From positions 16,665 through 80,664 of the forward strand of contig MFYT01000002.1 in NCBI GenBank assembly GCA_001789205.1: 64,000 nucleotides of DNA, in the 5' to 3' direction. The notes beneath the pieces were generated by a model, which saw nothing but the letters and a program-made list of their open reading frames with translations, was not told the origin of the DNA and ran no database searches. The number at the start of each line of letters is the position of its first letter. Within the stretch, counting starts at the first letter, position 1. The DNA comes from Candidatus Raymondbacteria bacterium RIFOXYA2_FULL_49_16 (GTDB lineage Bacteria > Fibrobacterota > OXYB2-FULL-49-7 > XYB2-FULL-49-35). The translations under genes were made by a program, and so were the position numbers. Positions 1 to 18,917 of the stretch are shown here, piece after piece.

Positions 1-1030
1 AAATAGCGGCGCTGGCTGTTCCTGTATGCGATTCGCTCAGAAGAAACCGGGAAATGAGATAGGGGCACCTGACCGCGAATATGGCATATCCCCCAGAGGC
101 GGCCTGCAGGCCATTCTCATTCTGCGTTATTCCCGACTCTTCGTAGACTCCATCCTTATAATCCGTGGACGGAGAAGCAAGGCAAGGTTGATACGCCATG
201 ATACCTTCGCCCCAGGCGGTTTTGCCATTTGCCTGCCAAAGAGTCCAGCTGGTCCCGGTAATGACATTGGCCTGGTTCTCGATCTCCCAAAGGCGCGTGA
301 TGGATTCGCCCTGGCGCAGGGTAAAACTCATGTCATGCCCCTGCTGAAAACAATCATGGTAGGTGTACATGGAAGACAGGCTGCCGGCAATCCTGGTCCC
401 AATACCCGGGTCCTGATCAAAGAAATAATTGACCGTATTTTTTGACGTTTGTGCGTTGGGCAATGCCATATATGTGCTTGCATTGTTTCCAATCCAATCA
501 ACACTATAAACCGAACCCGAAGCGTCCGCACCCCATCCACCGAGATTGTAATCAAAATAGTGCCAGGAACTGTTATAATAGACCTCCGCAATCGAATGGC
601 CGGTAATGGCCCATCGCCGCGCTTCGTACCCGAACCCCTCGCAGAGCCCCTCCATCATGGCCGAGGCCCAACCGCAGTAACCCACGCCATATACGTTTAA
701 AAATTTTATGGCATCCCATACTCCGTCATTTTCAGCCCCAGTTGCAGTGATCGGTTCAAAAGGATTGGCGTCGCCTCCATGGAAATAATAGGTATGGTTC
801 ATATCGCCATAATCTTGCCTGCGACCATCAAAAAAGGTGTCATGGAGCTTTTTAAGCAACGCATCGTTCGATAATCCCGCAAATACTGGATCGCTCTTGA
901 GCGCTTCAAAATCATACATATTAACCCGATGCGGTGAAACAAGCCATGGGCTTTGAAATTTTGCATATAATATTGAAAAGCCTGCAAGAATAACAAATGC
1001 CATCAATAGTGTCTTTCTCCAATGTGTCAT
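1..1030 (-). CDS. Secreted transglutaminase-like protein (partial, C-terminus outside window)
   Basis: The frame is open from an ATG at 1030 to the window edge, giving at least 343 residues with no stop, so the gene is cut at its C-terminus. An AGGAG ribosome binding site lies just upstream of the start. Residues 8-23 form a signal peptide or anchor. The region GVGYCGWAS (Cys119), GHSIAEV (His145) and WHYFDYN (Asp160) matches the Cys-His-Asp triad of the transglutaminase-like superfamily, which includes cross-linking enzymes and cysteine peptidases. The substrate cannot be told from the sequence. Its promoter region carries the tandem element and the -35/-10 shared with other secreted genes here, so it is probably a member of the same regulon. 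Confidence 0.7.
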   Translation of the reverse strand, partial: MTHWRKTLLMAFVILAGFSILYAKFQSPWLVSPHRVNMYDFEALKSDPVFAGLSNDALLKKLHDTFFDGRRQDYGDMNHTYYFHGGDANPFEPITATGAENDGVWDAIKFLNVYGVGYCGWASAMMEGLCEGFGYEARRWAITGHSIAEVYYNSSWHYFDYNLGGWGADASGSVYSVDWIGNNASTYMALPNAQTSKNTVNYFFDQDPGIGTRIAGSLSSMYTYHDCFQQGHDMSFTLRQGESITRLWEIENQANVITGTSWTLWQANGKTAWGEGIMAYQPCLASPSTDYKDGVYEESGITQNENGLQAASGGYAIFAVRCPYLISRFLLSESHTGTASAAI

Positions 1031-1117: not shown

Positions 1118-1214
1118 AATATATCACCAGATAAAACGCAATACAACCACTTAGATGAAGTTTTAATAGAAAAAAATGAATAAAAATGCGGTTTTTCTGG
1201 CGGAAAAACGGTAA
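1118..1214 (-). promoter_or_regulatory. AraC-type tandem site plus sigma-70 promoter, copy 1
   Basis: On the plus strand GCGGT (from 1188) and ACGGT (from 1208), each in an A/T-rich frame, are exactly 20 bp apart. Read on the minus strand they precede TTGTAT (1141-1146), a 17-bp spacer and TATATT (1118-1123), with the downstream gene starting at 1030. The same arrangement, including the 42-bp step from -35 to the proximal repeat, recurs at 18822-18917. Tandem half-sites about two helical turns apart upstream of -35 fit activation by an AraC-family protein; the regulator itself is inferred. Confidence 0.7.
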
Positions 1215-1253
1215 AAATGGCGCAAAGCACTAAAATTACACCAAGTATTCGAA

Positions 1254-2378
1254 TTATTCCCTATTATAAGCACTACCTTCTTCAATCATGGCAATCAGAT
1301 TATCAGAAAACGTTTTAGATATTTCGCTGGTATAGTATGTGGCGGCCGGGGATAGAATAAATCCTCGTCCGCCAGACATGGCAAGGGCCTCTCGGGTCAG
1401 CTTCCTGATTTCAACGGATGTACAGCGTTCTAGGTCTTCCATCTGTATATATCCATAAAAACAGATTTTACCACCTGTCTTTTCCTTCAGTTCCGCCAAA
1501 TCTATATCATTGGCAGGCGGAGGCTCAACGCAATTGATGCAGTCAACGCCAATCTCAAGAAAATTATTCACTTGGTCGCGCAGACGGCCATGGCAGTGAT
1601 TGTCCGCATAACACCCGGCCTGATGAATCATACTGACAAGTTCTTTATCATAGGGTACAATCCATTGCGACGCCCAATCCGGGGGCAGCATGGGAGTGGT
1701 GTATCCTTCGATATTGTGCAGGCGAAAAACCGGTCCCGCACCCTGGTCGATCAGGTAGGACAGCATCTCTTTCAGGCGCCTGAGATTTGTCTCACATATC
1801 CGCCGCATGCCCTCACCAGCGGAAATAGCATACATCAGGTAAAACTCGTAATTGCAGAGGCCTGCGGTCAGGTTGTGAGGTGAGGATATGCTGTGCATGC
1901 AAACAAGACCATTGTCGCCTATACGTTCCTGCAATGCGCGGGTTTCGGACATATCCGGCAGATAGGTAGGTAACGTAGCCAGTGAAAGCGCCTTATCCAG
2001 ATCTTCCTCGTTCTCAATAAACGCTTTTTCCTGGGCGGGTGAATTCGAAACGCGCGGGTCTTTTTTGCCAAGCGAATACAGTTCGCCTTTTGGCGTTTGC
2101 ATTGAAATACGCGAATATTCAATTACCCCTTCTTTCCTGGTTTCAGTTTTCAGTCCGCACGATTTAGGATCAATCAACAAGGGAGGCGTCCAAAACCATG
2201 AACGCACAAACGGTGTGCCATGTTTGTCAAGCGCCTTAAGTATGGGTTTGAAATGAGTGTAGGCGGGATTATTGCGGTCTATCTCGAATTCATTGATACC
2301 GAGAGGCGAAATTGGAACACTGCCGGTTTGTTCGCACCGCAGTGTCAGTAAAAGCCGTTCCTTGGGGGTCAGTTTCAT
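1254..2378 (-). CDS. Uroporphyrinogen decarboxylase-fold protein (URO-D/corrinoid methyltransferase-like)
   Basis: A protein of about 374 residues of the URO-D superfamily. The visible signature is a late HCHGR segment followed by NFLEIGVDCINCVEPPP and a GGKICFYGYI-type strand, as in MtaA/CmuA-like and uncharacterised URO-D proteins that move methyl groups between substrates and corrinoids. No haem-synthesis neighbours are present, so true HemE is unlikely. I place the start at the ATG at 2378, because an AAAGGA site lies 5-10 bases upstream; a longer version begins with TTG at 2393. No signal peptide is seen, so it should be cytoplasmic. It lies between two secreted-protein genes and its role here is unknown. 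Confidence 0.7.
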   Translation of the reverse strand: MKLTPKERLLLTLRCEQTGSVPISPLGINEFEIDRNNPAYTHFKPILKALDKHGTPFVRSWFWTPPLLIDPKSCGLKTETRKEGVIEYSRISMQTPKGELYSLGKKDPRVSNSPAQEKAFIENEEDLDKALSLATLPTYLPDMSETRALQERIGDNGLVCMHSISSPHNLTAGLCNYEFYLMYAISAGEGMRRICETNLRRLKEMLSYLIDQGAGPVFRLHNIEGYTTPMLPPDWASQWIVPYDKELVSMIHQAGCYADNHCHGRLRDQVNNFLEIGVDCINCVEPPPANDIDLAELKEKTGGKICFYGYIQMEDLERCTSVEIRKLTREALAMSGGRGFILSPAATYYTSEISKTFSDNLIAMIEEGSAYNRE

Positions 2379-2414
2379 TGCGTTTCCTTTCAATTAAAGA
2401 GCTTATGACGCTCC

Positions 2415-2711
2415 TTATCTGACGAGGACCAGTTTTTTCGAGAAAGCCATTGCGCCGACAGTCAGGTTTAAAATATAAATACCTGCTGGCCTGTCCGAGG
2501 CGTTCCAAGGTATGCTGGAAGCTGTGAATCGTGAGCCGCGAGCATCAAGCTTTTGTACAAAGTTTCCATGAATATCATAAATAATTATTTTGACTTCTTT
2601 ATCTCCAGTGAACAATTCGCCGTTCACGGCTATTCGCGTACTGGGATTAAAGGGATTGGGCACTATCGTTACTGCATCGCCAGTCTTTCCAGGACCAATG
2701 TGTTCTATCAT
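2415..2711 (-). pseudogene. Orphan C-terminal sorting domain, remnant of a secreted protein
   Basis: Some 98 residues remain, containing PNPFNPSTRI, a beta-rich IIYDIHGN segment, IPWNAS, AGIYIL and the basic end KKLVLVR. This is the complete C-terminal secretion domain of an exported protein, with no catalytic part in front. Its N-terminal side runs straight into the insertion sequence at 2719. The frame does not join the sulfatase on the other side of the element: removing the element leaves the two in different frames. It is either the tail of a lost gene or a frameshifted end of the sulfatase. There is no ribosome binding site at the first Met, so it is probably not translated. Confidence 0.6.
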
Positions 2712-2718
2712 ATCGTTA

Positions 2719-4006
2719 GTGTCTGCGATGAAATAAGTGTATCAACTTAGTGTCTTGGTCGGATCGTATAGTTCCAGTCACCATGGAAATCATTTCGAAT
2801 AAGATTGATTGTCTCCCACTCTTTTACCGTCACTTTACGACCAACTGGGTATTGACGATGATCTAATTTGCAGGAAACTTTCAATCCTGTAGTCGTTGTT
2901 GTCTTTGAAATCAGATTTACAACAGTCTCAAAATCGACCAAAGATTCTCCTCGCCAGTTTGAACTGATAAATGAGAAGAGCCGATGCTCCACCTTGTTCC
3001 ACTTGCTGGTACCGGGTGGAAAATGACAAACTGAAATAGGTAACCCTAACTCGTCTGCAAAACGCTGAAGTTCCCATTTCCACAAGCGCAATCTTGATCC
3101 ATTGCTCCCACCTGCATCCGCTGTGATTTGCAACCGTTTCGCCTTTGGATAAGCATACTTTCCTTCCGCCCGCCACCAGGCCCGAATCGAAGCAACCGCA
3201 AAAGTGGCGGTGTCATGGTCGGTTCCAACATTAACGAATCCTCTGTTGCGAGTCAACTCATAAATACCATACGGATGGGCACGCGGCACTAAAGGATCCG
3301 GAAAATCATGTCCATTTACTTTCAAGGCAGTACCTTTTTTGCGCCATTGATTCCCTCGATTGGCATAGTTACCAATGAGTTCTTTTTTCTTGGTATCCAC
3401 GGAAATAACTGGTTGGGCAACTCGTATTTCCTTTGTCACGCGTGCATTGATGTATTCAAACTGCGCATTGCGATCCGGATGTTGCTTGCCCTCGATTGTT
3501 TTGCTGTTGCCTTGGAGGCTATATCCCATGCCGTTTAAAAGTACCCCAACTATACGGCTACTGGCTGAATAACCCATCTCTTGCAACTCCCGTGAAAGAC
3601 TGCGTGTACTTTTGCAGGTCCAACGCAGAGGCGACTCCGGATCTCCGCGGGTCAATGGTTCGACCAGGCTTTCCAGCTTTTCAGGTAAGTCGGGCTTATG
3701 ATGAACAGCCGATTTGCGACCGCCACCAGACCTGCGAACTCGTCCTTCCGGCAACACTTCTTGAGTTTCTATCTCACGAAGTCCAACAAATATCGCACGC
3801 CGTGAAATATTCGTTGCACGCGCTACCAATGAAATTCCACCGTAGCCAAGAGTACTGGCTTCCGTCGCAGCCCAAATTCGTCGTGTATGCTCATTAAGAT
3901 GTGAGGAAATAAACTGATACTTCTGTTGAATTGCTGCTTCTGTTATCACACAGATAAAATAAATAATGCAAGGCTTGAGTTGCTACAGTTATTTCGTCGC
4001 AGACCC
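2719..4006 (-). mobile_element. ISAzo13-family insertion sequence, 1288 bp, apparently intact
   Basis: The ends are imperfect inverted repeats of about 30 bp: the left end starts GTGTCTGCGATGAAATAAGT and the inverted right end starts GGGTCTGCGACGAAATAACT. A TTA triplet flanks both sides (2716-2718 and 4007-4009), consistent with a 3-bp target duplication. A single transposase gene fills the element. The right-hand TTA is, on the minus strand, the TAA stop of the sulfatase gene, so insertion kept that stop intact. Confidence 0.8.
2747..3949 (-). CDS. ISAzo13-family DDE transposase
   Basis: A 400-residue transposase filling the insertion sequence. Recognisable family features are the N-terminal helix-turn-helix region (about residues 30-65, with GYGGISLVARATNISRRAI), the SVDTKKKELIGN segment holding the first catalytic Asp, the VNVGTDHDTATFAVASI block with GGSNGSR after ADAG, and the HFPPGTSKWNKVEHR block with the third acidic residue. 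These are typical of the ISAzo13 group. The start is GTG at 3949. No frameshift is present, so the element may be active. The host gene of the adjacent sorting domain was probably interrupted or left headless nearby. Confidence 0.85.
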   Translation of the reverse strand: MITEAAIQQKYQFISSHLNEHTRRIWAATEASTLGYGGISLVARATNISRRAIFVGLREIETQEVLPEGRVRRSGGGRKSAVHHKPDLPEKLESLVEPLTRGDPESPLRWTCKSTRSLSRELQEMGYSASSRIVGVLLNGMGYSLQGNSKTIEGKQHPDRNAQFEYINARVTKEIRVAQPVISVDTKKKELIGNYANRGNQWRKKGTALKVNGHDFPDPLVPRAHPYGIYELTRNRGFVNVGTDHDTATFAVASIRAWWRAEGKYAYPKAKRLQITADAGGSNGSRLRLWKWELQRFADELGLPISVCHFPPGTSKWNKVEHRLFSFISSNWRGESLVDFETVVNLISKTTTTTGLKVSCKLDHRQYPVGRKVTVKEWETINLIRNDFHGDWNYTIRPRH

Positions 4007-5575
4007 TTACACTGGCAGGGGTGTAGTATCGTTAGTTTGTTGCCGCCATTCTTGAATCCGCGTCTTCATATCGCGTACGCGACCTTTTTCGTTGGGGTCA
4101 TTAAAAAGGTTGTTCTGTTCAAAGGGATCACGGTTGAGATTATACAGTTCACACTGATCCACCGCGCTCAGGTTGAGTTTCCAACCTCGGTGGATGATGG
4201 TTCGCCAGGACTGGTTTTTTACACAATTGAGTACTTCCATGGGCGTACCGGTGGGAGCATGGGTGCCATCGTCTCCGTTCCACTCGATAAAGACAGGATT
4301 GTTCTCCAAACTTGCCCCATCGGTTAATTCACGTACACGACTGATGCCTTCGAGGTTACCAGGAATTGGCTGCCCCATGAGTTCGAGCAATGTCTGTACC
4401 AGGTCCACTTGGCTGAACGCGCCCGGTACCCGACGCATTAAATGAGACATCCAGGGAACATAGATCAGACAAGGTACGGTGAGCGCCTCTTCATACATCA
4501 CGCACTTGGCCAGAATGTGGTGATCACCCATCTGGTCGCCGTGGTCGCTGGTAAAAACGATGATGGTGTTTTCTGAAAGGCCGCATTCGGCGACCGTTTG
4601 CAGGATTCTACCTATGGCATTGTCCAGCATGGAGATCAGTCCATGATAATTGGCTCGCACTTGCCGCCAATCACGCTCTCCATTCAATGGTGAATCATAC
4701 GCCATAGCAGTATGTTGAAACCACGAGGCTATGAGCCGGTGCCGCCAGGAAGCGTTCTCTGGAGGTTGCTGAAGGAAAGTCGGGCCAACAGGTAGCGTAG
4801 TAGAATCATAAAGAGAATTTAGCGGTCCCGTGAAAGGCATGTGGGGTTCCAGCATATTCACATGCAGGAGAAAGGGCTGATCCTTGTTGGTCCGAATGAA
4901 ATTCACTGCTTCATTGGCGCAAAAAGCGGCTTTGGTGAGTTTCTCCTTCTGATTGGCGGCGAAAATACGGGAGAAAACGCGTTTGCTATCGCTCGTTTGC
5001 AAGTCCGGTTCCAGTCCATTGCGAACGAGAAAGTGGTGGTAATCGCTGAAGCGCTCAAGATCGGCAGGATTAGCGTAGAACTTCCGGTACTGATCCTCGA
5101 TGCTGCGCCAGTGTATAAATCCATGCTGGGCGGTGATTTCGCTGCCCAAGTGCCACTTACCCACGTAGCCGCGGACATACTTGGGCGAAACCATTTCTGC
5201 GATGGTCTTTGTGTCAGGATGCAATGGCGTGTTGTTGGAAACGCAACCATGCGTATGCGGATACAAGCCAGTCAGCACACTCGCACGCGAGGGCGTGCAA
5301 ACCGGTTGCGTAACATAAGCGCGGTTGAAAACAAAACTGCGTTGCGCGAGCCGGTTAAGGTTGGGCGCAGTGAGCCAGTGGTTGCCATAACATTCCAAGG
5401 TGTCGCGGCGCTGCTCATCCGTCCATAAAAAGAGCAGATTGGGTGTACGGCGGGGCATCGTAGAAGGAATGGGTGACCTTTCTCGGGAAATTGCATGTGC
5501 GCACCCTCCCAGTACGGTGGCTCCAGCGGCCATGCAAGCGCCTTGAAGAAAGTTGCGGCGACTGGTGCGATTCAT
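4007..5575 (-). CDS. Tat-exported lipoprotein sulfatase (arylsulfatase type)
   Basis: A 522-residue sulfatase that would cleave sulfate esters outside the cytoplasm. The N-terminus has a twin-arginine signal (NRTSRRNFLQ) followed by the lipobox LGGC (Cys25). CTPSR at residues 93-97 is the type I signature whose Cys is matured to formylglycine; metal-site motifs WTDEQRR, GKWHLG and SDHGDQMGDH are present. It lies 15 bp downstream of an esterase and is probably co-transcribed with it. No formylglycine-generating enzyme is seen in the window. The stop codon coincides with the target duplication of the insertion sequence. The sulfated substrate is unknown. Confidence 0.88.
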   Translation of the reverse strand: MNRTSRRNFLQGACMAAGATVLGGCAHAISRERSPIPSTMPRRTPNLLFLWTDEQRRDTLECYGNHWLTAPNLNRLAQRSFVFNRAYVTQPVCTPSRASVLTGLYPHTHGCVSNNTPLHPDTKTIAEMVSPKYVRGYVGKWHLGSEITAQHGFIHWRSIEDQYRKFYANPADLERFSDYHHFLVRNGLEPDLQTSDSKRVFSRIFAANQKEKLTKAAFCANEAVNFIRTNKDQPFLLHVNMLEPHMPFTGPLNSLYDSTTLPVGPTFLQQPPENASWRHRLIASWFQHTAMAYDSPLNGERDWRQVRANYHGLISMLDNAIGRILQTVAECGLSENTIIVFTSDHGDQMGDHHILAKCVMYEEALTVPCLIYVPWMSHLMRRVPGAFSQVDLVQTLLELMGQPIPGNLEGISRVRELTDGASLENNPVFIEWNGDDGTHAPTGTPMEVLNCVKNQSWRTIIHRGWKLNLSAVDQCELYNLNRDPFEQNNLFNDPNEKGRVRDMKTRIQEWRQQTNDTTPLPV

Positions 5576-5590
5576 TTTTTGACCTAAAAC

Positions 5591-7603
5591 TTATTTTAAT
5601 AACATAACAGTAGTGTTATAATTTTTATTACCTATTTTCAAGCAGACCATATATATACCGCTGGGAAAACCCGCGGCATTCCAGAAAATACCCGTTAAAA
5701 ACTGCTCGTTATTTGCAATTTGCCGGTGAACTATTTTACCATCTACAGAATAAACCGCTAGTGCACCGTTATTAACCGTTAACTTATTATTGCTTAAAGT
5801 TATTTTTACAACTGGATTAAACGGATTTGGCGAGACAGATAAGGCATCATCCATATCCTTGCTCTGCCTGCCTGCCACCACAGCTGAACAACCGCCGTTA
5901 CAAGTAATAATTAGTCTATTGCCCGTTTCCGACACCATCAAACTATCAACGGTAATCAGCCCATTTTCATCAGCAATGGCGATACCGGATGCTAAATTAT
6001 TTCCTGAAACCACGTCAATATTTCTCCAGTTGTATGCATCCCCGCCCCTAATAATGAAATCCTGGACCCTGCGCGGCGTAACATCTACAACCGTATTCGG
6101 TCTGCTGGACCTCATTGTTATTGAAATGGAATCAGCGCAGTCAATCAGGTCGTCGTTGGAAAGACCCATATCATGGAGAGAGGAGGTCCAATCGATATAC
6201 CCATTCATTAATCCAGCGGAATCGCATTGAAGAGCCGGCGTACCGGTAAAAACCAAATCCGAGGTGTCAGGGTCAAATTGCCCGTAATCGTCGTCCTGGG
6301 AGGCGTTTGAAAAAACAGGATACAATTCATTTTTCCTGAATCGCATATATCCGCCGCTTAAAACCGTATCAGACAAAATACTGTTGTCGTGACTTAGGTT
6401 GAACCATTTGCCCCATATGCCATGCCGTGTACCGGCGAATTTCCGGTATAAGCATCGGTGCATCCTCATGTTGCTTATGCCGTCAGTGCTTCCATGGCTA
6501 TTTACTATTGGAGGGAAGTCGCGGCCAATATTCTGCTCCGCAATCCAGGTTTCGTCCATCCAGTTGTAAATATTAACGCCATTTCGTGCGGTTAGGTTAA
6601 GGCTTTCCGGGCCATAGAAGTCGTACCAAACGCTATGATACCATGAATGGAATCCACGCGCAGCAATGTTTGGCCTTATTGCCGCCCAAATGTCCGGATT
6701 ATGAAAAGATGTATGGTACGTGCCAAAACCGCCCATGCTTCCACCGGATAAGTATATCCTGTTCGTGTCGATGGAAAATCTCGGATCATTTTTCAAAGAT
6801 TGCGTATAATATACAATGCGCATTTCATCATACCCGACAATGGTATCTCCATGCTGCAATTCATGCTCGCTATAATGATTAGAAACGCCATACCACCAGG
6901 ATTGGCAGAGGTGGTACGGAAGATTGCAATGATTTTGCAATCTCATTGTTAACCTGTCATTTTTTAAACCGGGATTTGAAGTATCATATAGAGTACTACC
7001 TGCTCCATGAAGATAGAGTTCTAAGGGAACATCCTGTTTTCCTCTTAATATAACTGCTTCTCCAACCACAAAATGGTCGCCATAATATTCGTATGCATGC
7101 GGCCAGTCGAAATAATCCATCCAGTAATAATAAAAATAATACGTATTCGAATTGTATTTTGATCTTAAAACGCCGCATGGCCATTGCCAATACTCCTCAT
7201 CTTCCGGTGAAACCAATGAATTCGTGCCGGAAATAATGTTCGTGTCTTCACTGCCGTTTGTCACGGAGGTGATCGCATAATATGCCGAGTTGTCTTGTTT
7301 GGGTGTATATACAAAAAGGCCGGTATTTGCGGAAAGCGGTTGTCCCAAGTCTTCAACAACATGGTAAAACCCGTATCGGGAATCATAACTCGAACCTTTG
7401 GGTATGTTAGCTAGCGGAGCAAGCCCATGAACATGGGCAATTTCATTTTCCGAGCGGTAAATATTATAGCTTTGTGCGCCGGAATCCTCCGTAAAGGTGA
7501 TAAATGTCTTACCTTTTCTGAATTCTGCTTTAAGGTCCGAGGGGGTAGAAAAAGAGTTGGTGAAACAAAGCAACGTAACAATCGCAGCACACATTACCCG
7601 CAT
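5591..7603 (-). CDS. Secreted alpha/beta-hydrolase esterase with C-terminal sorting domain (paralogue 1)
   Basis: About 670 residues: signal peptide, a fibronectin III-like segment (residues 20-50), a second beta region, an alpha/beta-hydrolase and a C-terminal PNPFNP sorting domain. The nucleophile elbow is GGSMGG (Ser about 289), with a likely Asp in SHGSTDG (about 374) and His in NLSHDN (about 405), in the PHB-depolymerase/feruloyl-esterase fold group. I chose ATG 7603 because GGAGG sits 5 bases before it; an upstream ATG at 7615 would put that site inside the gene. Three relatives lie in the window (7747, 13534, 21009). It probably removes acyl groups from plant polysaccharide; the ester type is not determined. 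Confidence 0.75.
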   Translation of the reverse strand: MRVMCAAIVTLLCFTNSFSTPSDLKAEFRKGKTFITFTEDSGAQSYNIYRSENEIAHVHGLAPLANIPKGSSYDSRYGFYHVVEDLGQPLSANTGLFVYTPKQDNSAYYAITSVTNGSEDTNIISGTNSLVSPEDEEYWQWPCGVLRSKYNSNTYYFYYYWMDYFDWPHAYEYYGDHFVVGEAVILRGKQDVPLELYLHGAGSTLYDTSNPGLKNDRLTMRLQNHCNLPYHLCQSWWYGVSNHYSEHELQHGDTIVGYDEMRIVYYTQSLKNDPRFSIDTNRIYLSGGSMGGFGTYHTSFHNPDIWAAIRPNIAARGFHSWYHSVWYDFYGPESLNLTARNGVNIYNWMDETWIAEQNIGRDFPPIVNSHGSTDGISNMRMHRCLYRKFAGTRHGIWGKWFNLSHDNSILSDTVLSGGYMRFRKNELYPVFSNASQDDDYGQFDPDTSDLVFTGTPALQCDSAGLMNGYIDWTSSLHDMGLSNDDLIDCADSISITMRSSRPNTVVDVTPRRVQDFIIRGGDAYNWRNIDVVSGNNLASGIAIADENGLITVDSLMVSETGNRLIITCNGGCSAVVAGRQSKDMDDALSVSPNPFNPVVKITLSNNKLTVNNGALAVYSVDGKIVHRQIANNEQFLTGIFWNAAGFPSGIYMVCLKIGNKNYNTTVMLLK

Positions 7604-7746
7604 AATTTCCTCCATATTTTAGATTCGATTCAAATACAGGCCCGTAGGCGAACGTTTAATCTTAAGAGCATCTTTATTTCATGCAAGCGACTCGTCCGTA
7701 TACTCCATCAACAATATCTACCCCGCCCTATCTTTTTGAAGGATAT

Positions 7747-9804: not shown

Positions 9805-12436
9805 TTGCGCCTCCTATACATAGTTTATAAAAATAGATCCCGGAACTGACTACCATATCTTTGGAATCGCAGCCATTCCACCTAACAGTATTCACCCTTT
9901 TTAGCTTTTGAATATTGAACTTCATTATCAATTTTCCTTGAAGGTTATAAATAGACAAATACGCTGTTTGATCGCTTCCTAATCGCGTATTCATGTCAAA
10001 TGAAATTACCGTATTAGGATTAAACGGATTTGGAATGTTTTGATTTAACGTGAAAGATGCCGCGGAATGAGTATTGTTCTCCCTATCAGCCAATACCGTA
10101 TCATAATCAATTGCTTCTGGAAGAGGATTTGTGCGATAATCATCTTTATGCTTAAGATAAAAATAATAGGGCTGCAACCACGCGTTACCCATACCCCAAT
10201 GAGATACTTCCTCATTCTGACGTACAATACGAACCATTTCCGTATCACCGGTCGCGTAATAATATCCCATAAGCGCGCCCATAACACGGTAATTGGAAGC
10301 CGAGGATTCCGCATCTCCACTATCGACGCACATTGTTGGCGTACCAGGGTCGTCATAGGGAATTAATCCTCCATCACCGATAATGCACCGGAACCAGTCC
10401 TTGTGGGCATTAATAATGTCCATTTCCCTATCATTTTGAAAATCCTTCCAATTGCGCACAACACTTGCGCCCCAAATACCTTGGAAAAATGGAGACCCAG
10501 CAGGCCATCTTCCTTCTGTTGTTTGAAATTCACGGAATATGCTGTCCAGGTACATCAAACGCTCCAAATGATATGCATCTCTGCTTAATGAATAAGCGTC
10601 ATGTATATTTCGCATGGCGGCGCCAATATTCCTTCCATCACCTCCATAATCTCCTCTTCCGATAGTCTGACCGACCATATCCATGCCACGCCATTCAACC
10701 ATAGCCAAGGCGTTATCATAAGCCCGACGATCGCCTGTCAAACAATACATATCCATGGAATTCTGAATATCATTGTGCCCGGTAGTCGGACAACCCCATA
10801 TATGGTTATCCGGAAGATCCCCGCTATGCACAGGGTCTCTGCGAGGTCTCCATGTCTTGTAATAATCATAAAAACCTACAGGCATTTCATTTCCCGCATA
10901 ACGGCTGAAAAAGTAATCAAAATATCTATAACCGTCTATATGAAAAGATGAAAGATCATTCTGCAGGTTTGTAGCGGCCTCCGCAAACCTAAATTGTCTT
11001 GGATCCAAAGTCTGCAGAAAGTGGAGCCACTCGTCCTGTGGTATTTCTCCCTGTTGATCATTAAATAAATAGTCACTTAAGCCAAAACGGTCCCATCCAT
11101 CCTCATATCTCGAATGCACCCATTTCAAGGATGGGTTAATAATTGGCAAGGTGGTATCATGCGCTGTTGTTAAGGTATCGTAGACCATATCATCCAGATA
11201 AGCCCGTGTTATGCTGTACCAGGAACGGGGACAAGTCGGAAACAATTTGTGGTTGAAAGACGCAACTTTATTAAATGCTTTTGATTCTTCCGCCGATCCA
11301 GTGTGGAAATAGTAGATGACTGAGTGAGTCTTATGCTCCCTATCACCTAAAAAGTATTTGTCTCCAGCTTCATGCGGCCATAATCCCACTTCCATCACCC
11401 CACCATCCATTATTCTTATTGCTTTCGGGAAATTACTTGCCAGATCGTATACTCCTACGGAAAGGCCCCATTGGCTGTCTGAAATATCCGACCAGCCAAG
11501 ACTTCTGGACCCGCTTTGTATTGTACTGATACCGGAATAGATGTTAAAGCTATTTGAGTCGTTCTGAAAAAGATAAGCGCTATCTCCGTCGTTCAATATC
11601 CCTTTTACGGAATCGTTACCAAAAAAAGAGTAACTTTTTGTACCGCTTAAATTTAATGAAGTGACCAAACTGAAATCAGAGGTCCCAAGGGGCCCTCGCG
11701 CAATAATTTCAGGAGAATTCTTTAAGGTATAATCCACACGAACCTCGCTCTTTCCAGCCCATGCGTACATACGGCAAAGATATCCGTAATAACGGTTATC
11801 ATTTAACCCGTTCGAATGATGTCCTTCCAGGCAAATTACCGCACGAAATGGACCAGATTCTTCTATTTTTACCGACATTCCCGTATCTTTAGCGGAATAA
11901 AATACCTCAGAAGTATATAGCGCATGTAATACGGCCCCATCAAAAGGATTGGAACGCACAAGCGTGTCATTAACCTCCCCATTTTTGTCACCATCTAAAA
12001 GCACAAGATCAAACAGATTAAATCCACCGTTCTTTTTTATCCTGAATATTAAAACGCCTGTGGATACTGAGATATATTCCGATGTCTCACTTACCTCAAG
12101 ACTTGTCATCGGAATTGTCCCAGGACTATTGTCTTCCAATATATACACAGTCTCACCATGGGCCGGCACAGATGCATTAAACTGCGCTAACATCCACCGT
12201 ATAGAGCTATCAGGCCAAAACATCAGCGGATTAAAACAATAATTGTCCGCACCATCTATCTGGAAGTAACGCGTGTTCTTATATGCTCCTTTTGGAAGCG
12301 GTACACCAGTTGCCACAGGCTCTTGGATTCTCGGAACACCATGATATTCGTATACCCTTAAGGGGATATATAGACATTGTACAGTTATTGCGGTAATAAG
12401 GGAAATGCATGCTGCATATATCGTTGACCGTCTCAT
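9773..12436 (-). CDS. Secreted YetA/rhamnogalacturonan-exolyase-like protein with sorting domain
   Basis: An 887-residue exported protein with an N-terminal signal, an N-terminal beta-barrel-like region with the segments GVPLPKGAY and FWPDSSIRWMLAQFN, a long helix-rich middle (about residues 400-800, with repeated Trp/Tyr/Gly patterns as in alpha/alpha toroids) and a sorting domain with IPNPFNPNTVI. This order resembles the PcRGLX/YetA group (PL26-type rhamnogalacturonan exolyases). I cannot confirm catalytic residues, so the call is by architecture. It lies between esterases and a carbohydrate-binding-like protein, which fits pectin breakdown. An AAGGAAT site precedes the ATG. Confidence 0.55.
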   Translation of the reverse strand: MRRSTIYAACISLITAITVQCLYIPLRVYEYHGVPRIQEPVATGVPLPKGAYKNTRYFQIDGADNYCFNPLMFWPDSSIRWMLAQFNASVPAHGETVYILEDNSPGTIPMTSLEVSETSEYISVSTGVLIFRIKKNGGFNLFDLVLLDGDKNGEVNDTLVRSNPFDGAVLHALYTSEVFYSAKDTGMSVKIEESGPFRAVICLEGHHSNGLNDNRYYGYLCRMYAWAGKSEVRVDYTLKNSPEIIARGPLGTSDFSLVTSLNLSGTKSYSFFGNDSVKGILNDGDSAYLFQNDSNSFNIYSGISTIQSGSRSLGWSDISDSQWGLSVGVYDLASNFPKAIRIMDGGVMEVGLWPHEAGDKYFLGDREHKTHSVIYYFHTGSAEESKAFNKVASFNHKLFPTCPRSWYSITRAYLDDMVYDTLTTAHDTTLPIINPSLKWVHSRYEDGWDRFGLSDYLFNDQQGEIPQDEWLHFLQTLDPRQFRFAEAATNLQNDLSSFHIDGYRYFDYFFSRYAGNEMPVGFYDYYKTWRPRRDPVHSGDLPDNHIWGCPTTGHNDIQNSMDMYCLTGDRRAYDNALAMVEWRGMDMVGQTIGRGDYGGDGRNIGAAMRNIHDAYSLSRDAYHLERLMYLDSIFREFQTTEGRWPAGSPFFQGIWGASVVRNWKDFQNDREMDIINAHKDWFRCIIGDGGLIPYDDPGTPTMCVDSGDAESSASNYRVMGALMGYYYATGDTEMVRIVRQNEEVSHWGMGNAWLQPYYFYLKHKDDYRTNPLPEAIDYDTVLADRENNTHSAASFTLNQNIPNPFNPNTVISFDMNTRLGSDQTAYLSIYNLQGKLIMKFNIQKLKRVNTVRWNGCDSKDMVVSSGIYFYKLCIGGANASRKMVYLR

Positions 12437-12481
12437 ATTTTATTCCTTGATAGAGGTATCATACGCAAAAAATGTTCTTAA

Positions 12482-13474
12482 CTATTTAACTACAGAGAGC
12501 TTTTTCATATAGTTTGCTTCGTTAATCGAAGCCTTAAGCATGTATATACCCGAATGAACGCTGATATTTCGGCTGTCTTTGCCATCCCAGGTAATGGCAT
12601 ATGTTCCGGGCTGCTGCTGCGCGTTGACCAGCGAACGTACCAGTTTTCCTTCTGTACTGTACACGTTCATGACAACGCGTGCATGAGCAGGGAGGTTGTA
12701 CCGCAGTATAGTGTTACAGTTGAACGGATTTGGAAAAGCGGATATGGCGGACAATGTTTTAGTGTCGGTTTTGTCTTCAACTGCCGTGGGATCGTAAAAT
12801 ACCCACAGTTCGGTCCAGCCACGGGGGTTGGCGCCTTTATAAAAAAACCACTGGCTCCATCCGTTCGCAGTGGCGTCCCAGCCCCAAACGCATATTCCAT
12901 GCGCATTGCCTTCAAGCAAATCCTTTGCCGTATTTTTATCGATATCAATGATCATATATGGATACTGGTAATTCGTAGAATCGGAAACAATCGGTTTTTT
13001 GCCAAAGTTAACCACTGTTCCAAGGCTGGCAAACCCATTTTTCCATTTCACAGAAGGACTGCGCGCATACAGAAAGCTCGGTTCACCCTCTGGAGGCGCA
13101 ACAGTATAGTTTTGCTGGGTTCCCTGTATCCAGGATAAATCCGAACGGATGATGTTATAATACATGCCCGCAGTACCGCGATAGCTGTTCTCCGGCTTCA
13201 TTACAAGCTGCACACCCACAATTTGTGCAAACGGCGGTACTGTTGAAACATCAAAATCCACAGTGAAATAGTTTTGATTATTGGTCTTGAAAAAACCGAA
13301 TTCCGGGTTACTGTAGTTGCCCACCTGTTCTGCTCCAGATGAGCTGAAAGACCCGTCGATCGTACGGATAAGCGTGACCTTCTGATATCCTCTATAGTTG
13401 ATAGGACCAGCAAAAAGGCCTTGAGAAAAAAAGTAAAGAGCACAAAATCCGAGGATTTTTATTAAATTTGACAT
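12482..13474 (-). CDS. Secreted CBM96/DNRLRE-like protein with sorting domain
   Basis: A 330-residue protein: signal peptide, one beta-sandwich domain of about 200 residues and a C-terminal sorting domain (AFPNPFNCNTILRY, WDGKDS, SGIYML). The segment reading FTVDFDVSTVPPFAQIVGVQLVM, followed by DIDKNTAKDLLEG and GICVWGWD, follows the pattern of DNRLRE/CBM96-type modules, which bind polysaccharide or act as adhesins. There is no catalytic motif. The start has a GGAGG site at close spacing. The gene follows a strong hairpin after paralogue 3. Probable role: surface binding of the polymer attacked by its neighbours (inference). Confidence 0.55.
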   Translation of the reverse strand: MSNLIKILGFCALYFFSQGLFAGPINYRGYQKVTLIRTIDGSFSSSGAEQVGNYSNPEFGFFKTNNQNYFTVDFDVSTVPPFAQIVGVQLVMKPENSYRGTAGMYYNIIRSDLSWIQGTQQNYTVAPPEGEPSFLYARSPSVKWKNGFASLGTVVNFGKKPIVSDSTNYQYPYMIIDIDKNTAKDLLEGNAHGICVWGWDATANGWSQWFFYKGANPRGWTELWVFYDPTAVEDKTDTKTLSAISAFPNPFNCNTILRYNLPAHARVVMNVYSTEGKLVRSLVNAQQQPGTYAITWDGKDSRNISVHSGIYMLKASINEANYMKKLSVVK

Positions 13475-13490
13475 AAGCCTCCAAAAAGGT

Positions 13491-13523
13491 GGCGCGCAAG
13501 GAAAAAAGTCTTCCTTGCGCGCC
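13491..13523 (-). terminator. Strong intergenic hairpin, possible attenuator
   Basis: GGCGCGCAAGGA and its exact complement form a 12-bp stem with a 9-base loop in the 59-bp gap between two minus-strand genes. On that strand the stem is followed by ACCTTTTTGG, a short U-run, and then the ribosome binding site of the next gene. It could terminate part of the transcripts or protect the 3' end of the upstream message. Confidence 0.6.
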
Positions 13524-13533
13524 GGGGGGGGTG

Positions 13534-15717
13534 CTATTTCATGAATATAATTCTTTTTAATAGTTTCTGATCACCTGCACTTATTTTAACTACATATAGG
13601 CCTGAGGGATATAGGGTAGCATCCCAGGCATATCGCAAAGGAACCGCGGACTGAATACGCAGAGGCAATGAATGATGCACGAGGACGCCTTTAGCGTTAA
13701 ATATTCTCACAATAACATTCAGGCTTTGCGTTGTTGGCCCATGATTTACTATAGAGATTATCGTTGCCGGATTAAATGGGTTTGGATAGCATTTCATCGA
13801 TAGATTACCGGCAATACTCTCCCTGTTACAGGACACTCCAGATACAAAATTAAGGGGAACGACAATCAATCTGCTCCCTCCGCTGTTTTTATCACCAGCT
13901 TTTACCTCAAAACCCTTGAACGTCAATAACCCAAGGCTGTCCGCAGTCAGAGTGTCCACTTGGAATACAGTGTTTAAATCATTAACCGCGGTATTCCTGG
14001 CAATATATTCTTCCCCTGGTGTTACCACAAATTTCTGGAGTCTTCGGGGAGTAATATCCGCAATATTATCGCCATTCCTGGAGACCAAAACAATTTCGTA
14101 TCTGTTGACGCTGTCGATCTGGTCTTGATAGCCTCCAACACGGTAATAAGGGGTGCTCCAGTTGAACTGAGTATTAAAGGAATAATAGATCGAGTCTGGT
14201 GAATCGGGAACCGGAAGGCCGGGATTTCCCGAGACATTTGAAAACGCGACAAATGAATTATTCTTTCTTATTGTTGTGGTCTGGTCATCATTTCCATTTG
14301 GAATCGCAAATAATACACCTGAGCAATAGTGTCCGGAAGCTCCGTCGCATCCTCCGCTCCAGCCACGCCTGGTTGAATCCAGGTTTGTATAATAGTTCCG
14401 GCCCTGCTGCGGCCAGTTAACACTTCCGTCTGTACCGCCATGACATATGAATATCCACGGCATTTCAACGCGTTCCATTTTAAAGAGCATGTTTTCCTGG
14501 TTTAAAAAGGTATGCAGAGTCATTCCTCCGAAAGATTCATTCAGCCATTCACTCCTCCAGCCGGTAAATTTTACCTGCATGGTATCATTGGTATGGGAAC
14601 CCCATCGCGTTTCGCACTGACGAAGCCAAGACCAATCAGTTTCCAGATAATTTGTAACAGCGGTTTTGGCTATTCCATAGGCAAAAAAATCAGGATAATG
14701 GTGCATAAACTGCAATGTGCCACTTCCACCCATTGAAGCCCCTGTTGTGAAAATCCGGTTAGTATCAATACGTGTAGAATAATACGGTTCCCGCAGTATC
14801 ATCCATTTTAAGAAATTCATATACCGGGCTTCGGTAAAATTTACTACTGGACCATCTTCCCTGATCGCACCTGAATTGCAGCAGGTTGGCACTATAACAC
14901 TGGTATCATACACCGCTGTCTGACTATAACCAAACCACCAATTTCCGGTTTCGTGCGTCTTGCACTCGATTCCTTGGCTGTTCCAACTATATGAATTACC
15001 TAGTGATGAAAGCGTTCCAGGCATGCCTGCAAGGCCCAGGCAGAGGGAAAGCTTTTCGGACGTTGTATTATATTTTGTGCCCACGCCAACCCAATACGGC
15101 CATGCGTATTCTCCTGTGTATGTAGGGTTAAAGGAATCAACGTCTGTATACTGAAGATATATTCTCGCCTCTTTTATCCCAGACTGCCATAGCAACACAG
15201 GTGTTGGCTCTTCCACTGTTTCTTCAATCGCTCCAGTAATATTACCGTTATTTAGTGATTTATCTTCAACCCCTCCAACAACGGCTGTAATGGCATAATA
15301 ATAAGTGCCGACTGTGTGCGTTGTCAAAACTACCATCCCCGTACCATCGGCAACTTCAACAGCATTGCCAGAAGCAGTGTCGCTTAAAGGAATAATGACA
15401 TGTTTTCGTATTGAGCAGGGAGGCGTAAGGGCCATGAAACCGTTTGATTCCGGTCTATAGTCAACCAGAGAGTTAAGATGTTTGTTGTTGGCCGAACCTT
15501 GCGGGACTTCATATCGCTTGTTTAACGCGGTTAAATCCCCGGCAGAAAAGGCTGAAAGAGATCGATAAACAATATATTTTTCCGCAGATACAACCTCGTT
15601 CCAGGTAATAAAAACCTGACCCGAACGGAAAAATGCGTTTGTGTTTGTAGGCGTTTCGGCATAGCCACTTAGCATGGTAATGACAAGAATCAGAAGCAGA
15701 AGGATTGTTTGTTTCAT
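13534..15717 (-). CDS. Secreted alpha/beta-hydrolase esterase with C-terminal sorting domain (paralogue 3)
   Basis: About 727 residues when started at ATG 15717, which directly begins a good signal peptide (MKQTILLLLILV); a longer version from 15771 has no function for its extra 18 residues. A fibronectin III-like stretch (ending VFITWNEV) is followed by the hydrolase with GASMGG (Ser about 328), a likely Asp in HGGTDGS (about 430) and His in GASGHYC (about 463), then a sorting domain with YPNPFNPATI. It is the first gene of what may be one long operon running down to the sulfatase. The tandem AraC-type element, copy 2, lies about 190 bp upstream. Confidence 0.75.
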   Translation of the reverse strand: MKQTILLLLILVITMLSGYAETPTNTNAFFRSGQVFITWNEVVSAEKYIVYRSLSAFSAGDLTALNKRYEVPQGSANNKHLNSLVDYRPESNGFMALTPPCSIRKHVIIPLSDTASGNAVEVADGTGMVVLTTHTVGTYYYAITAVVGGVEDKSLNNGNITGAIEETVEEPTPVLLWQSGIKEARIYLQYTDVDSFNPTYTGEYAWPYWVGVGTKYNTTSEKLSLCLGLAGMPGTLSSLGNSYSWNSQGIECKTHETGNWWFGYSQTAVYDTSVIVPTCCNSGAIREDGPVVNFTEARYMNFLKWMILREPYYSTRIDTNRIFTTGASMGGSGTLQFMHHYPDFFAYGIAKTAVTNYLETDWSWLRQCETRWGSHTNDTMQVKFTGWRSEWLNESFGGMTLHTFLNQENMLFKMERVEMPWIFICHGGTDGSVNWPQQGRNYYTNLDSTRRGWSGGCDGASGHYCSGVLFAIPNGNDDQTTTIRKNNSFVAFSNVSGNPGLPVPDSPDSIYYSFNTQFNWSTPYYRVGGYQDQIDSVNRYEIVLVSRNGDNIADITPRRLQKFVVTPGEEYIARNTAVNDLNTVFQVDTLTADSLGLLTFKGFEVKAGDKNSGGSRLIVVPLNFVSGVSCNRESIAGNLSMKCYPNPFNPATIISIVNHGPTTQSLNVIVRIFNAKGVLVHHSLPLRIQSAVPLRYAWDATLYPSGLYVVKISAGDQKLLKRIIFMK

Positions 15718-15902
15718 ATGCGTTATATTCCTTTCATTGAATACTGATAATGTATCACTTTCTTTTGGCAAATACTTCCATTAATTTCAGGAAAGAATAA
15801 CAAAATCTTTGGGGTTGGCAACACCATGGGGGTCTGGAATTATTAAAAATGGAGGGAAAACCACAAAAACAGGCACGAATGGATGTTTATCCTGTATTAA
15901 AT

Positions 15903-15938
15903 GAATGAAAAAGCGGTTTTTTTAATGGAAAAACGGTA
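15903..15938 (-). promoter_or_regulatory. AraC-type tandem site, copy 2
   Basis: TGAATGAAAAAGCGG is followed by ACGGT with GCGGT (15913) and ACGGT (15933) exactly 20 bp apart, as in the copies near 1.2 and 18.9 kb. It is upstream of the esterase starting at 15717. The promoter part is less conserved than in the other copies; a possible TTTGTG (15862-15867) with a 17-bp spacer and AATAAT is weak. Confidence 0.6.
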
Positions 15939-15971
15939 AATATGGGAATTCAGACTATCAGGACTCTTATA

Positions 15972-17456
15972 TTACCGAATCATAAGAAACTTTTTGCAAA
16001 CAGATCTGCCTGCTACATTCAGCTTACAGATATATACTCCTGAGGAGCCCCTCGTATGACTTAGTTTAAAAGCGGATTCATTAGTTCCGAGTTTTCCGGG
16101 AAGGTTGCCCGATACCTGTTTAACTAAAGAGCCTTTGATATCGTAGAGTGAGAGGTCTACTTGAGAACTTGCAGGTAAAATATATCTGATGTTGACCGTT
16201 GACCCATCTACATGGAGGAAGGATATCTCAAATTTTCCGTTCCCATTACTTGACGTCTCTTTTTCAATTGCATTTGGATCAATCCAATCAGCCAGGTGTT
16301 GCCTGAAATTCTTCTGTGTCTTCCCATAAAAGTAATAACCAGTCTCCTCGTCATCCTGTACAACATTCGGGGAAGCGAGAAGCCTGACATATGAATCCGG
16401 ATAGGTCGGCCCTGCTGAATAACTCCAGCTTGAAACATTATTTGGGTTCTGCTTTATCATAACATGGCCACCGTAAATCACATACTCTTCCAAAGCGTTA
16501 TAGAACGCCTCAGTATTATCAAATTTGAATCCCTCGTTGATAAAAACAACCGGGTAGTTATAAAAATTAGGGATATAGTCGCCAGTAATAGATTCCCATG
16601 TATATCCCTCTTCGGCCATAGCACCGTAGAGTCTGTAATCAAAGACACTCACAGTATTTCTGGAAATATAAAGTACGTCCTTCTGGTTCTTATCATAGTA
16701 GGGGGTTGTTTGCCGCTGCATCTCGCTATAAACCACAGCAAGAAGGAGAATCTGTTGCGCAAAATATTGGTAGTTGTGCTCATTATTGTCAGTGCAGCTT
16801 ACATACCATGGGGCTATATTTAAGATAATCTCAGAAAAAATATTGGGTATCGCATCGTCCAGCCCCCATCGTACATGAGCCGTATCCAAATAGCTTTTAT
16901 AGCCGGTCATTATTTCTTGCTCCGTAAGAAGCCCGTCCCCATATTTGGTATCTATTCCTCCATACTCCCCCGCCTTTTCAGGAAATTGAAATTCAAGGAA
17001 GTGGGTCATCGCAGCGCATTTGAGCGCAATCTTATATGTATCAATAGGCTCTTCGCTAAGATCTTTTTGAATGTCTCGGATATACCAATCCCATTGATAC
17101 GATTGATGATCGCCAATATATCCAATCTCACCATGTGAAGCGGAGATCAGGTATCCGAAATCAGGCGCATTCTCAAAATTTAATACTGAAACAACATCAA
17201 GGTTCCCGTCTGATAGCAGCGGTGTGCCAGCATCTTCAATTAAATGACCATAATAATCACAGCTGTGGCCAACATGATTCACATCAGAAGGGAGATCATT
17301 GCCGAAGTAACTTAGCCTGGTTTTCAGGAGTTCCTTCAGCGGCCCTTCATTCATAAGTTCAACGCCCCATCCTGGCATAAGGTCATGAAATTCAAACCAG
17401 CAGAAACCAGGTACGCTTAATAGAATAGAAATGATTAGTGTAATTCTTAACGACAT
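15972..17456 (-). CDS. Secreted protein of unknown family, possible clan CD cysteine peptidase, with sorting domain
   Basis: A 494-residue exported protein. After the signal peptide, a hydrophobic strand ends in YLISASHGE (His108) and, 39 residues on, another strand ends in YKIALKC (Cys147). A strand closing with His-Gly, then a strand closing with Cys about 35-50 residues later, is the arrangement of clan CD peptidases (caspase, legumain, gingipain); this is a pattern match only. A sorting domain follows from about residue 415 with a less typical core and SSGVYICKL near the end. It is 13 bp downstream of the SGNH esterase with a GGGGG site, so co-transcribed. No family was recognised with certainty. 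Confidence 0.45.
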   Translation of the reverse strand: MSLRITLIISILLSVPGFCWFEFHDLMPGWGVELMNEGPLKELLKTRLSYFGNDLPSDVNHVGHSCDYYGHLIEDAGTPLLSDGNLDVVSVLNFENAPDFGYLISASHGEIGYIGDHQSYQWDWYIRDIQKDLSEEPIDTYKIALKCAAMTHFLEFQFPEKAGEYGGIDTKYGDGLLTEQEIMTGYKSYLDTAHVRWGLDDAIPNIFSEIILNIAPWYVSCTDNNEHNYQYFAQQILLLAVVYSEMQRQTTPYYDKNQKDVLYISRNTVSVFDYRLYGAMAEEGYTWESITGDYIPNFYNYPVVFINEGFKFDNTEAFYNALEEYVIYGGHVMIKQNPNNVSSWSYSAGPTYPDSYVRLLASPNVVQDDEETGYYFYGKTQKNFRQHLADWIDPNAIEKETSSNGNGKFEISFLHVDGSTVNIRYILPASSQVDLSLYDIKGSLVKQVSGNLPGKLGTNESAFKLSHTRGSSGVYICKLNVAGRSVCKKFLMIR

Positions 17457-17469
17457 TTCTGCCCCCTAA

Positions 17470-18762
17470 TTATTTCACTAAAATAGTCCTGCAGGCCTTG
17501 ATTATCTTCCCATTATTGATAATTATTGAGTAAACACCTGTTGCTACCCGCCGGTTTTCATCGTCTTTGCCATCCCAGGTTACGGAATACGTTCCAGGAG
17601 TATACATCCGGTTCGCAAGCGTCTTGACCTTCTTGCCGGAAGTGTTAAAAATCGAAATAGTAACGGCACCAGCGCTATTGTTTCCTGGTAACACAAATGA
17701 AACAATCGTTGAAGGATTGAACGGTGAAGGAGCTGTAGAGATTTCAATGTTGTCTGGTGTTGCAGAGGCTGATGCATAAACGCCCGTTGCCACAACGGTA
17801 TCGGCTTTATATATAACCTTTTGCCGCAACTCAAGCGTTGTTTCCAAAAGCATGATATTCCAGAGTCCGCACACAGGATTTAAAACCCCTTTGGCCTGGG
17901 CAAGTGGATAGAATATTACGCTATCGCTGAAATTACCCGAAGACTGCGACCTTTCTGGATGAGCGCCATCGCGGGTGCAATAATCGCTTCTGAGCGTGCA
18001 ACCGCCGATCAACGGATCAACTGCGGCACCGTACCAGTCCAAACAGGGAACCCGATACCGGGCAGCAAAGGCCCTTAACGAATCATTATATACCGGCGTT
18101 CTGCCTTCATGGTCGTACGCTGAACCGGGCTGTTCTGGATTCAGGGTTACAATAATAGGAATAACATTGCTGTCCAGAGACCGTTTCAGCAGCCTCATCC
18201 ATTCAGCCCTTCTGGTCGAATTCCAATAACAATCATCATTGTGGCCAAATTCCAGGGTAACCCACATGGGGTTGAGGTTATTCAATGCATTGCCAAGCAG
18301 AGCAAAACCCTCTGCTGTTTTTGCGCCAACCTGGTTTCCGTTGGCTGCATAATGGCAGGTGAGGTCATAGAGCCAGGGATGGTCCCGATTGCTGGCACCC
18401 CCTGGACCGCCCCATGTTTCAGTCAGAAAATTGTCCCAATACGTATTGTTGGGCCTGACGCAGTTGATAATGCCCGATCCTGTCCAACTGCCAGGCGACT
18501 GGCGGCCCTCGGATAAATCTGAAGGAAAAGGGCCATCATTAGTGATTGAATTGCCGACCAGTCCAAAACGGTATTTATTCCATCCCCGCGTTCCCTGGCT
18601 CTTCTGCCACCGGACATTCACATTGAGCATTGAATCGAGGCAATCCTGGTCGCAATGAAGATAGGGATAAAATTCAGGCCAGTAACCTGATCCTTGAAAC
18701 GCACCATTTGCTAGAACAAACCATACACAAACAGCGCTAAAAATGACTGCAGGCTTAACCAT
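17470..18762 (-). CDS. Secreted SGNH/GDSL esterase (rhamnogalacturonan acetylesterase-like) with sorting domain
   Basis: A 430-residue exported hydrolase: signal peptide, SGNH domain (about residues 60-310) and sorting domain (PSPFNPSTIV, WDGKDD, ATGVYSI). Block I reads GNSIT (Ser72) instead of the usual GDS; block III is EFGHND (173-176); block V is DGAHP (Asp265, His268). FGHND is typical of CE12 rhamnogalacturonan acetylesterases, so deacetylation of pectin is a reasonable guess. AAAGGC precedes the ATG. It heads a two-gene unit whose promoter carries the tandem AraC-type element, copy 3. Confidence 0.75.
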   Translation of the reverse strand: MVKPAVIFSAVCVWFVLANGAFQGSGYWPEFYPYLHCDQDCLDSMLNVNVRWQKSQGTRGWNKYRFGLVGNSITNDGPFPSDLSEGRQSPGSWTGSGIINCVRPNNTYWDNFLTETWGGPGGASNRDHPWLYDLTCHYAANGNQVGAKTAEGFALLGNALNNLNPMWVTLEFGHNDDCYWNSTRRAEWMRLLKRSLDSNVIPIIVTLNPEQPGSAYDHEGRTPVYNDSLRAFAARYRVPCLDWYGAAVDPLIGGCTLRSDYCTRDGAHPERSQSSGNFSDSVIFYPLAQAKGVLNPVCGLWNIMLLETTLELRQKVIYKADTVVATGVYASASATPDNIEISTAPSPFNPSTIVSFVLPGNNSAGAVTISIFNTSGKKVKTLANRMYTPGTYSVTWDGKDDENRRVATGVYSIIINNGKIIKACRTILVK

Positions 18763-18821
18763 AGAGAGCCTTTCTTTTCTATTTATAGTTTCGGTCTAAT
18801 GTTAAAATTTTCATTACTCTA

Positions 18822-18917
18822 AATATATCATCAGATAAAACGTAGTACAACCACATGGATGAAGTTTTTATTGAAAAAAATGAATGAAAAAGCGGTTTTT
18901 TTGGCTAAAAAACGGTT
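18822..18917 (-). promoter_or_regulatory. AraC-type tandem site plus sigma-70 promoter, copy 3
   Basis: GCGGT at 18892 and ACGGT at 18912 are 20 bp apart; on the minus strand they precede TTGTAC (18845-18850), a 17-bp spacer and TATATT (18822-18827), then the SGNH esterase start at 18762. The distal half-site overlaps the TAA stop of the AraC regulator gene. Much of the roughly 95-bp segment is near-identical to 1118-1214. Confidence 0.72.

Follow-up and report, generated by a model that had tools for sequence, protein, structure and literature searches.

We analysed a stretch of 64,000 nucleotides from Candidatus Raymondbacteria bacterium RIFOXYA2_FULL_49_16 (contig MFYT01000002.1, positions 16,665 to 80,664; hereafter the window), in which three units of secreted-protein genes lie beside the gene for P0001, a predicted membrane-spanning regulator of the AraC type, and each unit is headed by a copy of a tandem DNA site (Table 1). 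Genes on the same contig are co-directional, on the minus strand, from C2:106 as far as the gene next behind the AraC gene. A preliminary description of this DNA had placed the copies upstream of minus-strand genes for secreted proteins, and the first genes 3' of all copies do lie on that strand and encode signal-peptide proteins with C-terminal domains that are FlgD-like or of the type IX secretion system (T9SS) type. Delimited by gene direction and spacing, the three putative transcription units have an enzyme content that fits the breakdown of an acidic, esterified and sulfated polymer as the presumed substrate.

Three exact copies of GCGGT-N15-ACGGT stand on the plus strand where they had been described, at 1188-1212, 15913-15937 and 18892-18916, against 0.12 expected in shuffled window sequence. 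Copies 1 and 3 are alike over 98 nt, at 87% and without gaps, from the -10 hexamer through the distal half-site; copy 2 retains just about 43 nt in common with them. The letters also bear out that TTGTAY-N17-TATATT is common to copies 1 and 3, where it lies on the minus strand, and that it stands equally far from the tandem site in both, with 41 bases between the -35 hexamer and GCGGT. The AraC gene does end inside copy 3, its stop codon (18918-18916) having one base in common with the end of the core. An RNA element as the identity of the sites was rejected, an Rfam scan of the window giving zero matches.

The preliminary description had named random scatter across the genome as grounds for abandoning the motif. 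GCGGT-N15-ACGGT has 16 genome-wide matches versus 30 for the reversed control, and the bare ten-base motif falls under that rule because it is scattered at chance level; we rejected it as a genome-wide regulon marker. The longer element is confined to the locus. Over the 5.43 Mb of the genome its extended core, GCGGTTTTTYT-N5-AAAAACGGT, turns up exactly three times, always at the reported places, and the core GCGGTTTTTYTNNNNNAAAAACGGT has three exact matches genome-wide, all in this locus; with up to 3 mismatches one further match appears in coding sequence and one elsewhere, and the control gives 2. A BLAST-type search with the 121-nt region of copy 3 returned meaningful scores for copies 1 and 2 only. 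The chance level of the bare motif might suggest that the copies are a fortuitous likeness in AT-rich intergenic DNA, but we take this as already refuted by the extended core, whose three exact matches in 5.43 Mb all fall within 17.8 kb; the 98-nt and 43-nt common blocks also speak against it, and its probability is negligible. A near-match at 24044-24068, within the coding sequence of a sigma-54 activator, was taken as chance, the reversed control yielding two over the genome.

Hydropathy of P0001 predicts a topology with a signal peptide and a single transmembrane (TM) helix. Only HTH_18/HTH_AraC were matched in Pfam (HTH_18 at 1.2e-15), and the protein carries the DNA-binding domain with two helix-turn-helix motifs of the AraC/XylS family, with 3oio, 3oou and 2k9s as PDB relatives. 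In fold comparisons, residues 543-651 matched AraC-type domains (6swi, Z 17.3) and residues 23-245 matched an endo-beta-1,4-glucuronan lyase (2zzj, Z 19.1), as well as Cip1 and other carbohydrate-active jelly rolls, a likeness of fold that does not in itself establish a ligand or an activity. The AlphaFold2 model combines a mean pLDDT (predicted local distance difference test) of 79.7 with a pTM (predicted template modelling score) of 0.44, so each domain can be used on its own, but not the arrangement of the domains relative to one another. In this model the TM helix passes straight into the DNA-binding domain, without a histidine kinase or receiver. Matches to clostridial toxin binding domains were set aside: they share about 10% identity and a common lectin-like jelly roll, give no sign of toxin function, and are outranked by carbohydrate-active jelly rolls in a second fold search.

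In about 25 AraC proteins of the genome, a single TM helix accompanies a large N-terminal domain. Sampled relatives gave no full match, and 166 other genomes of the phylum gave none to the sensor part; a scan of genome contigs found one match only, confined to the DNA-binding domain. For 25 regulators we compared the 200 nt after the stop codon with itself at lags of 10-60. The mean self-lag score had its sole peak at 19-22 and rose weakly once more at 42, and the best lag fell within 19-22 bp for 14 of the 25 regulators, where dinucleotide shuffles gave 2.5 +/- 1.5 (maximum 6; 0/300 reached 14). When the set was restricted to the 19 regulators whose gene is followed by 80 nt or more of intergenic DNA, the proportion was 14/19, as against 10/86 among control intergenic stretches from those loci (Mann-Whitney p=4e-7). 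The same layout recurs at many paralogous loci in different letters, the tandem cores being ACCGY in the window and otherwise AGTCTC, ATGCYG or AGMCGAA. At the closest paralog (41%, locus L116), an unbiased search of intergenic DNA for repeated blocks revealed a 91-nt element that overlaps the end of the regulator gene at its stop codon; the element has one other genome copy only, heading a second, distant unit, and both bear TTGTWW-N17-TATATT together with ATCYAWGYGGTTG-like sequence in common with the window copies.

These paralogous loci bear on two other accounts of the sites. A promoter block might have been duplicated in a local rearrangement, the copies being alike through ancestry with no common regulator; the ungapped 98-nt alignment of copies 1 and 3 and the presence of an insertion sequence (IS) transposase in the locus would suit this. 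Copy 2, however, retains the operator block alone, the common stretch is bounded by functional borders (the -10 hexamer and the distal half-site), and block duplication cannot explain independent paralogous loci with the same 20-bp tandem plan in other letters, so we hold this account to be quite unlikely. Alternatively, the AraC gene could be a mere neighbour of sites that serve another regulator, such as the sigma-54 activator whose gene adjoins the locus; ownership of the operator is, after all, read from position. Yet the tandem sites follow AraC paralogs genome-wide, direct repeats of 20-21 bp are a known AraC-type geometry (PMC3878776; 21 bp in araI1-I2 of E. coli), and the inspected copies, 1 and 3, have TTGTAY-N17-TATATT and no GG-N10-GC, whereby a sigma-54 promoter at these elements was rejected. 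A different owner of the sites appears very unlikely.

When the -10 hexamers were assigned by simple scoring, the distances from operator to promoter clustered more tightly than after exchanging promoters among loci (6 within +/-6 nt, p=0.014). Across ten loci aligned on the -10, A-tracts peaked at -92, -72 and -52, with 20-bp power at p=0.001 versus row shifts, and cores read by eye stood at -90/-70/-50 from the -10 in most loci, the window half-sites lying at -89/-69. The trio of regulators with the closest DNA-binding domains (78, 58 and 55% identity) has a private AAAARMCGAA-type core in common, and the AAAARMCGAA tandem has three occurrences genome-wide, of which two lie at trio regulators. 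The sign of control cannot be read from sequence, and the AraC protein might bind as a repressor or act mainly in autoregulation; but the half-sites precede the -35 hexamer, standing 69-89 bp ahead of the -10 and not over the start, and the 137 nt before the AraC gene contain no copy, which leaves these roles unlikely.

The reading best supported is a local regulon at a polymer-degradation locus under a membrane AraC protein. The preliminary description had reached it from proximity only; the link to AraC now has independent backing from the tandem sites that follow most paralogs, the -10 register in the alignable loci and the layout at the closest paralog. Judged from sequence, the three copies would be the cognate operators through which P0001 activates the three secreted-enzyme units, a reading to which we assign a probability of roughly 0.8. 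The sites, their confinement to the locus and the recurrence of the layout at paralogous loci are read directly from sequence and the protein architecture is predicted, whereas binding, the ligand, the direction of control and the extent of the transcription units are inferred. A polymer fragment beyond the inner membrane would be captured by the jelly-roll/Ig sensor in the periplasm, and the signal would travel via the single TM helix into the cytoplasm, where the AraC domain would bind the 20-bp direct repeat, two helical turns apart, and activate the weak TTGTAY-N17-TATATT promoter about 70-90 bp downstream of the half-sites. The three co-directional units would thereby be turned on, with a rhamnogalacturonan-lyase-like protein, a sulfatase, GDSL and S9-type esterases, phosphoesterases, a carbohydrate-binding module and a symporter. 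On a wider view, which we rate as an even bet, a lineage-restricted cassette (sensor-TM-AraC gene, tandem operator from its stop codon, promoter, secreted-enzyme unit) may have been duplicated often in this one bacterium, sensor and operator letters diverging while the register stayed fixed, to give about 25 largely insulated polymer-sensing switches, from which the AraC protein-DNA recognition code could be studied as a natural data set.

Several points weigh against P0001 as the activator at these sites. Copy 2 has no TTGTAY-N17-TATATT at the standard distance, and its nearest promoter-like pair, TTGCCA-N16-TATTCT at 15821-15794, is of a kind that occurs at chance level in the region; with an operator and without the standard promoter, this copy would follow a different distance rule or use an unrecognised promoter, and it is the weak point. 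The 19-22 band was fixed after the lag spectrum had been seen, the 20 bp of the preliminary description pointing there, and the ten aligned rows and their cores were picked after inspection, so that the register is supportive and not blind. The automatic lag test gave no 20-bp signal for the closest paralog's own operator. Across all loci, identity of the DNA-binding domains correlated weakly with operator letters (Mantel p=0.06), and we rejected a general correlation, only the closest trio being clear. Neither the 166 other phylum genomes nor the contig scan yielded an orthologous locus, so that footprinting across species was impossible.

Parts of this arrangement have precedents. Saccharophagus degradans 2-40 has 16 membrane-bound AraC regulators (13 paralogs) beside polysaccharide-degradation genes, and these one-component regulators are proposed to sense extracellular polymers (PMC2386152). 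P0001 has the same sensor-TM-AraC plan by predicted topology, and the two bacteria are alike in their one-component architecture and lineage-specific expansion, here with about 25 paralogs and polysaccharide-degradation genes as neighbours at the window locus. S. degradans belongs to another lineage, and the sensor family here lacks a full match in the other phylum genomes compared. No operators are mentioned in the passage of that account considered here; in the present genome most regulator genes are followed by a tandem operator.

Operators of the hybrid two-component systems (HTCS) of Bacteroides are direct repeats with a mean spacing of 21 bp, with one motif per regulator and a regulon that is mostly the adjacent locus (PMC3878776). 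A large periplasmic carbohydrate sensor, an AraC-type output and a direct-repeat operator of about 21 bp (here 20 bp, in the paralogs 19-22 bp) are common to both. The system here resembles an HTCS in its working yet is not one: the HTCS polypeptide includes a kinase and a receiver, and P0001 has neither. Unlike the HTCS-controlled polysaccharide utilization loci, it has no SusC/SusD among the 23 genes (locus and left flank) scanned with Pfam, and its products carry T9SS-type sorting tails. E. coli AraC shares the type of DNA-binding domain and the direct-repeat half-sites, 21 bp apart in the araI1-I2 sequence that we inspected. It is a soluble protein with its own arabinose-binding domain. 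The likeness of half-site CCGCATTTTTATTCATT to E. coli araI1 (13/17) was rejected, as eight places in the window score at least 13. SusR is likewise a membrane one-component regulator whose periplasmic sensor governs polysaccharide genes; according to PMC3878776, however, it has a DNA-binding domain of a kind other than AraC, and 67-77 bp separate its half-sites.

Our literature search on membrane AraC proteins in Fibrobacter found nothing specific. The expansion of membrane AraC regulators (Saccharophagus, PMC2386152) and the 21-bp operators of HTCS (PMC3878776) were already known; new are the operator at the 3' end of most regulator genes, the locus-specific half-sites on one plan, the common promoter register in alignable loci and a sensor family of which the searched collections gave no other example. 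Control of polymer degradation in this phylum is poorly described in the literature searched. If the reading is true, about 25 regulator-operator pairs of one geometry would make DNA choice by AraC-type proteins and the insulation of duplicates directly testable. The reading would also offer a means of assigning secreted-enzyme units to the sensors that control them, and polysaccharide biosensors could be built from the predicted promoter-sensor modules.

Table 1. Genes and sequence elements of the locus; positions refer to the window unless preceded by C2.
Feature	Position	Strand	Description
Operator copy 1	1175..1216	-	Tandem half-sites ACCGT + ACCGC, 20 bp apart (gene direction), then ATTCAT
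Operator copy 2	15899..15941	-	Common part is the ~43-nt tandem half-site block only
Operator copy 3	18878..18920	-	Overlaps the AraC gene stop codon
Core promoter, copy 1	1118..1146	-	TTGTAT-N17-TATATT; ACCGT/ACCGC offsets identical to copy 3
Core promoter, copy 3	18822..18850	-	TTGTAC-N17-TATATT; ACCGT at -89, ACCGC at -69 from the -10 hexamer
Regulator P0001	18916..20871	-	651 aa; AraC-type, predicted membrane-spanning
P0001 domains (predicted)			Signal peptide; polysaccharide lyase (PL)-like jelly roll 21-248; Ig/Fn3-like beta domains; TM helix 506-539; AraC-type DNA-binding domain 543-651
Unit 1, first gene	2..1030, exits window; whole gene C2:14695-17694	-	999 aa: CBM96, fn3, T9SS tail
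Unit 1, remainder	to C2:2377	-	Seven further same-strand genes: phosphoesterases (two), SSF symporter, S9-type esterase, sorting-tail proteins
URO-D-like protein gene	1254..2393	-	Just upstream of element 1
Transposase gene	2747-3949	-	IS-type (DDE_Tnp_ISAZ013); flanked by the URO-D-like gene and the sulfatase that ends unit 2
Unit 2, sulfatase	4007-5575	-	
Unit 2, further genes	5591-7615 and 7747-9804	-	Two sorting-tail proteins, listed before the sulfatase
Unit 2, rhamnogalacturonan-lyase-like protein	9773-12436	-	PcRGLX
Unit 2, second gene	12482-13474	-	FlgD_ig protein, listed after the S9-type esterase in the unit
Unit 2, first gene	13534..15717	-	S9/esterase-like, T9SS tail; ATG start 15717
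Unit 3	15972..18762	-	GDSL-type esterase with FlgD_ig 17470-18762; T9SS-tail protein 15972-17456
Sigma-54 activator gene	22936-25296	+	786 aa; divergent from the AraC-side genes
Second sensor-TM-AraC gene	61177-63393	+	738 aa; near contig end

Within the window, the transposase could have split the URO-D-like gene from unit 2. After the stop codon of the second sensor-TM-AraC gene the best self-lag is 21 bp.

Other observations concern the paralogous loci. Directly upstream of the closest AraC paralog, and co-directional with it, are genes for a glycyl-radical (PFL-like) enzyme and a radical-SAM protein (L116 6842-9831), the latter probably the activase of the former. After one AraC stop codon (L146, on C30) the best lag is 24 bp (score 16, against 12 at 20 bp), which may be a variant of the spacing. 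Three paralogs, L117, L118 and L121 (C39:40531, C59:21290 and C79:3769), have no intergenic space after the regulator; on C79 a strong 20-bp tandem site (TTTCCGGAAAA) stands two genes beyond the regulator instead, and near 17300-17500 of L118 (C59) there is an intergenic, near-identical repeated unit, GTGATTGCAAAGATGGACTCGTTAACTAATGTAAGATCAGGAACTTACCG. A 22-nt match beside the AraC paralog at C39:61216 was discarded as part of a different, palindrome-rich region. The palindrome- and AT-rich block after that AraC paralog (TTATATAAACAGGCGCCTGTTTTATATAA; L125 10223-10330, C39:61223-61330) has a self-lag of 35 and is unlike the tandem operators.

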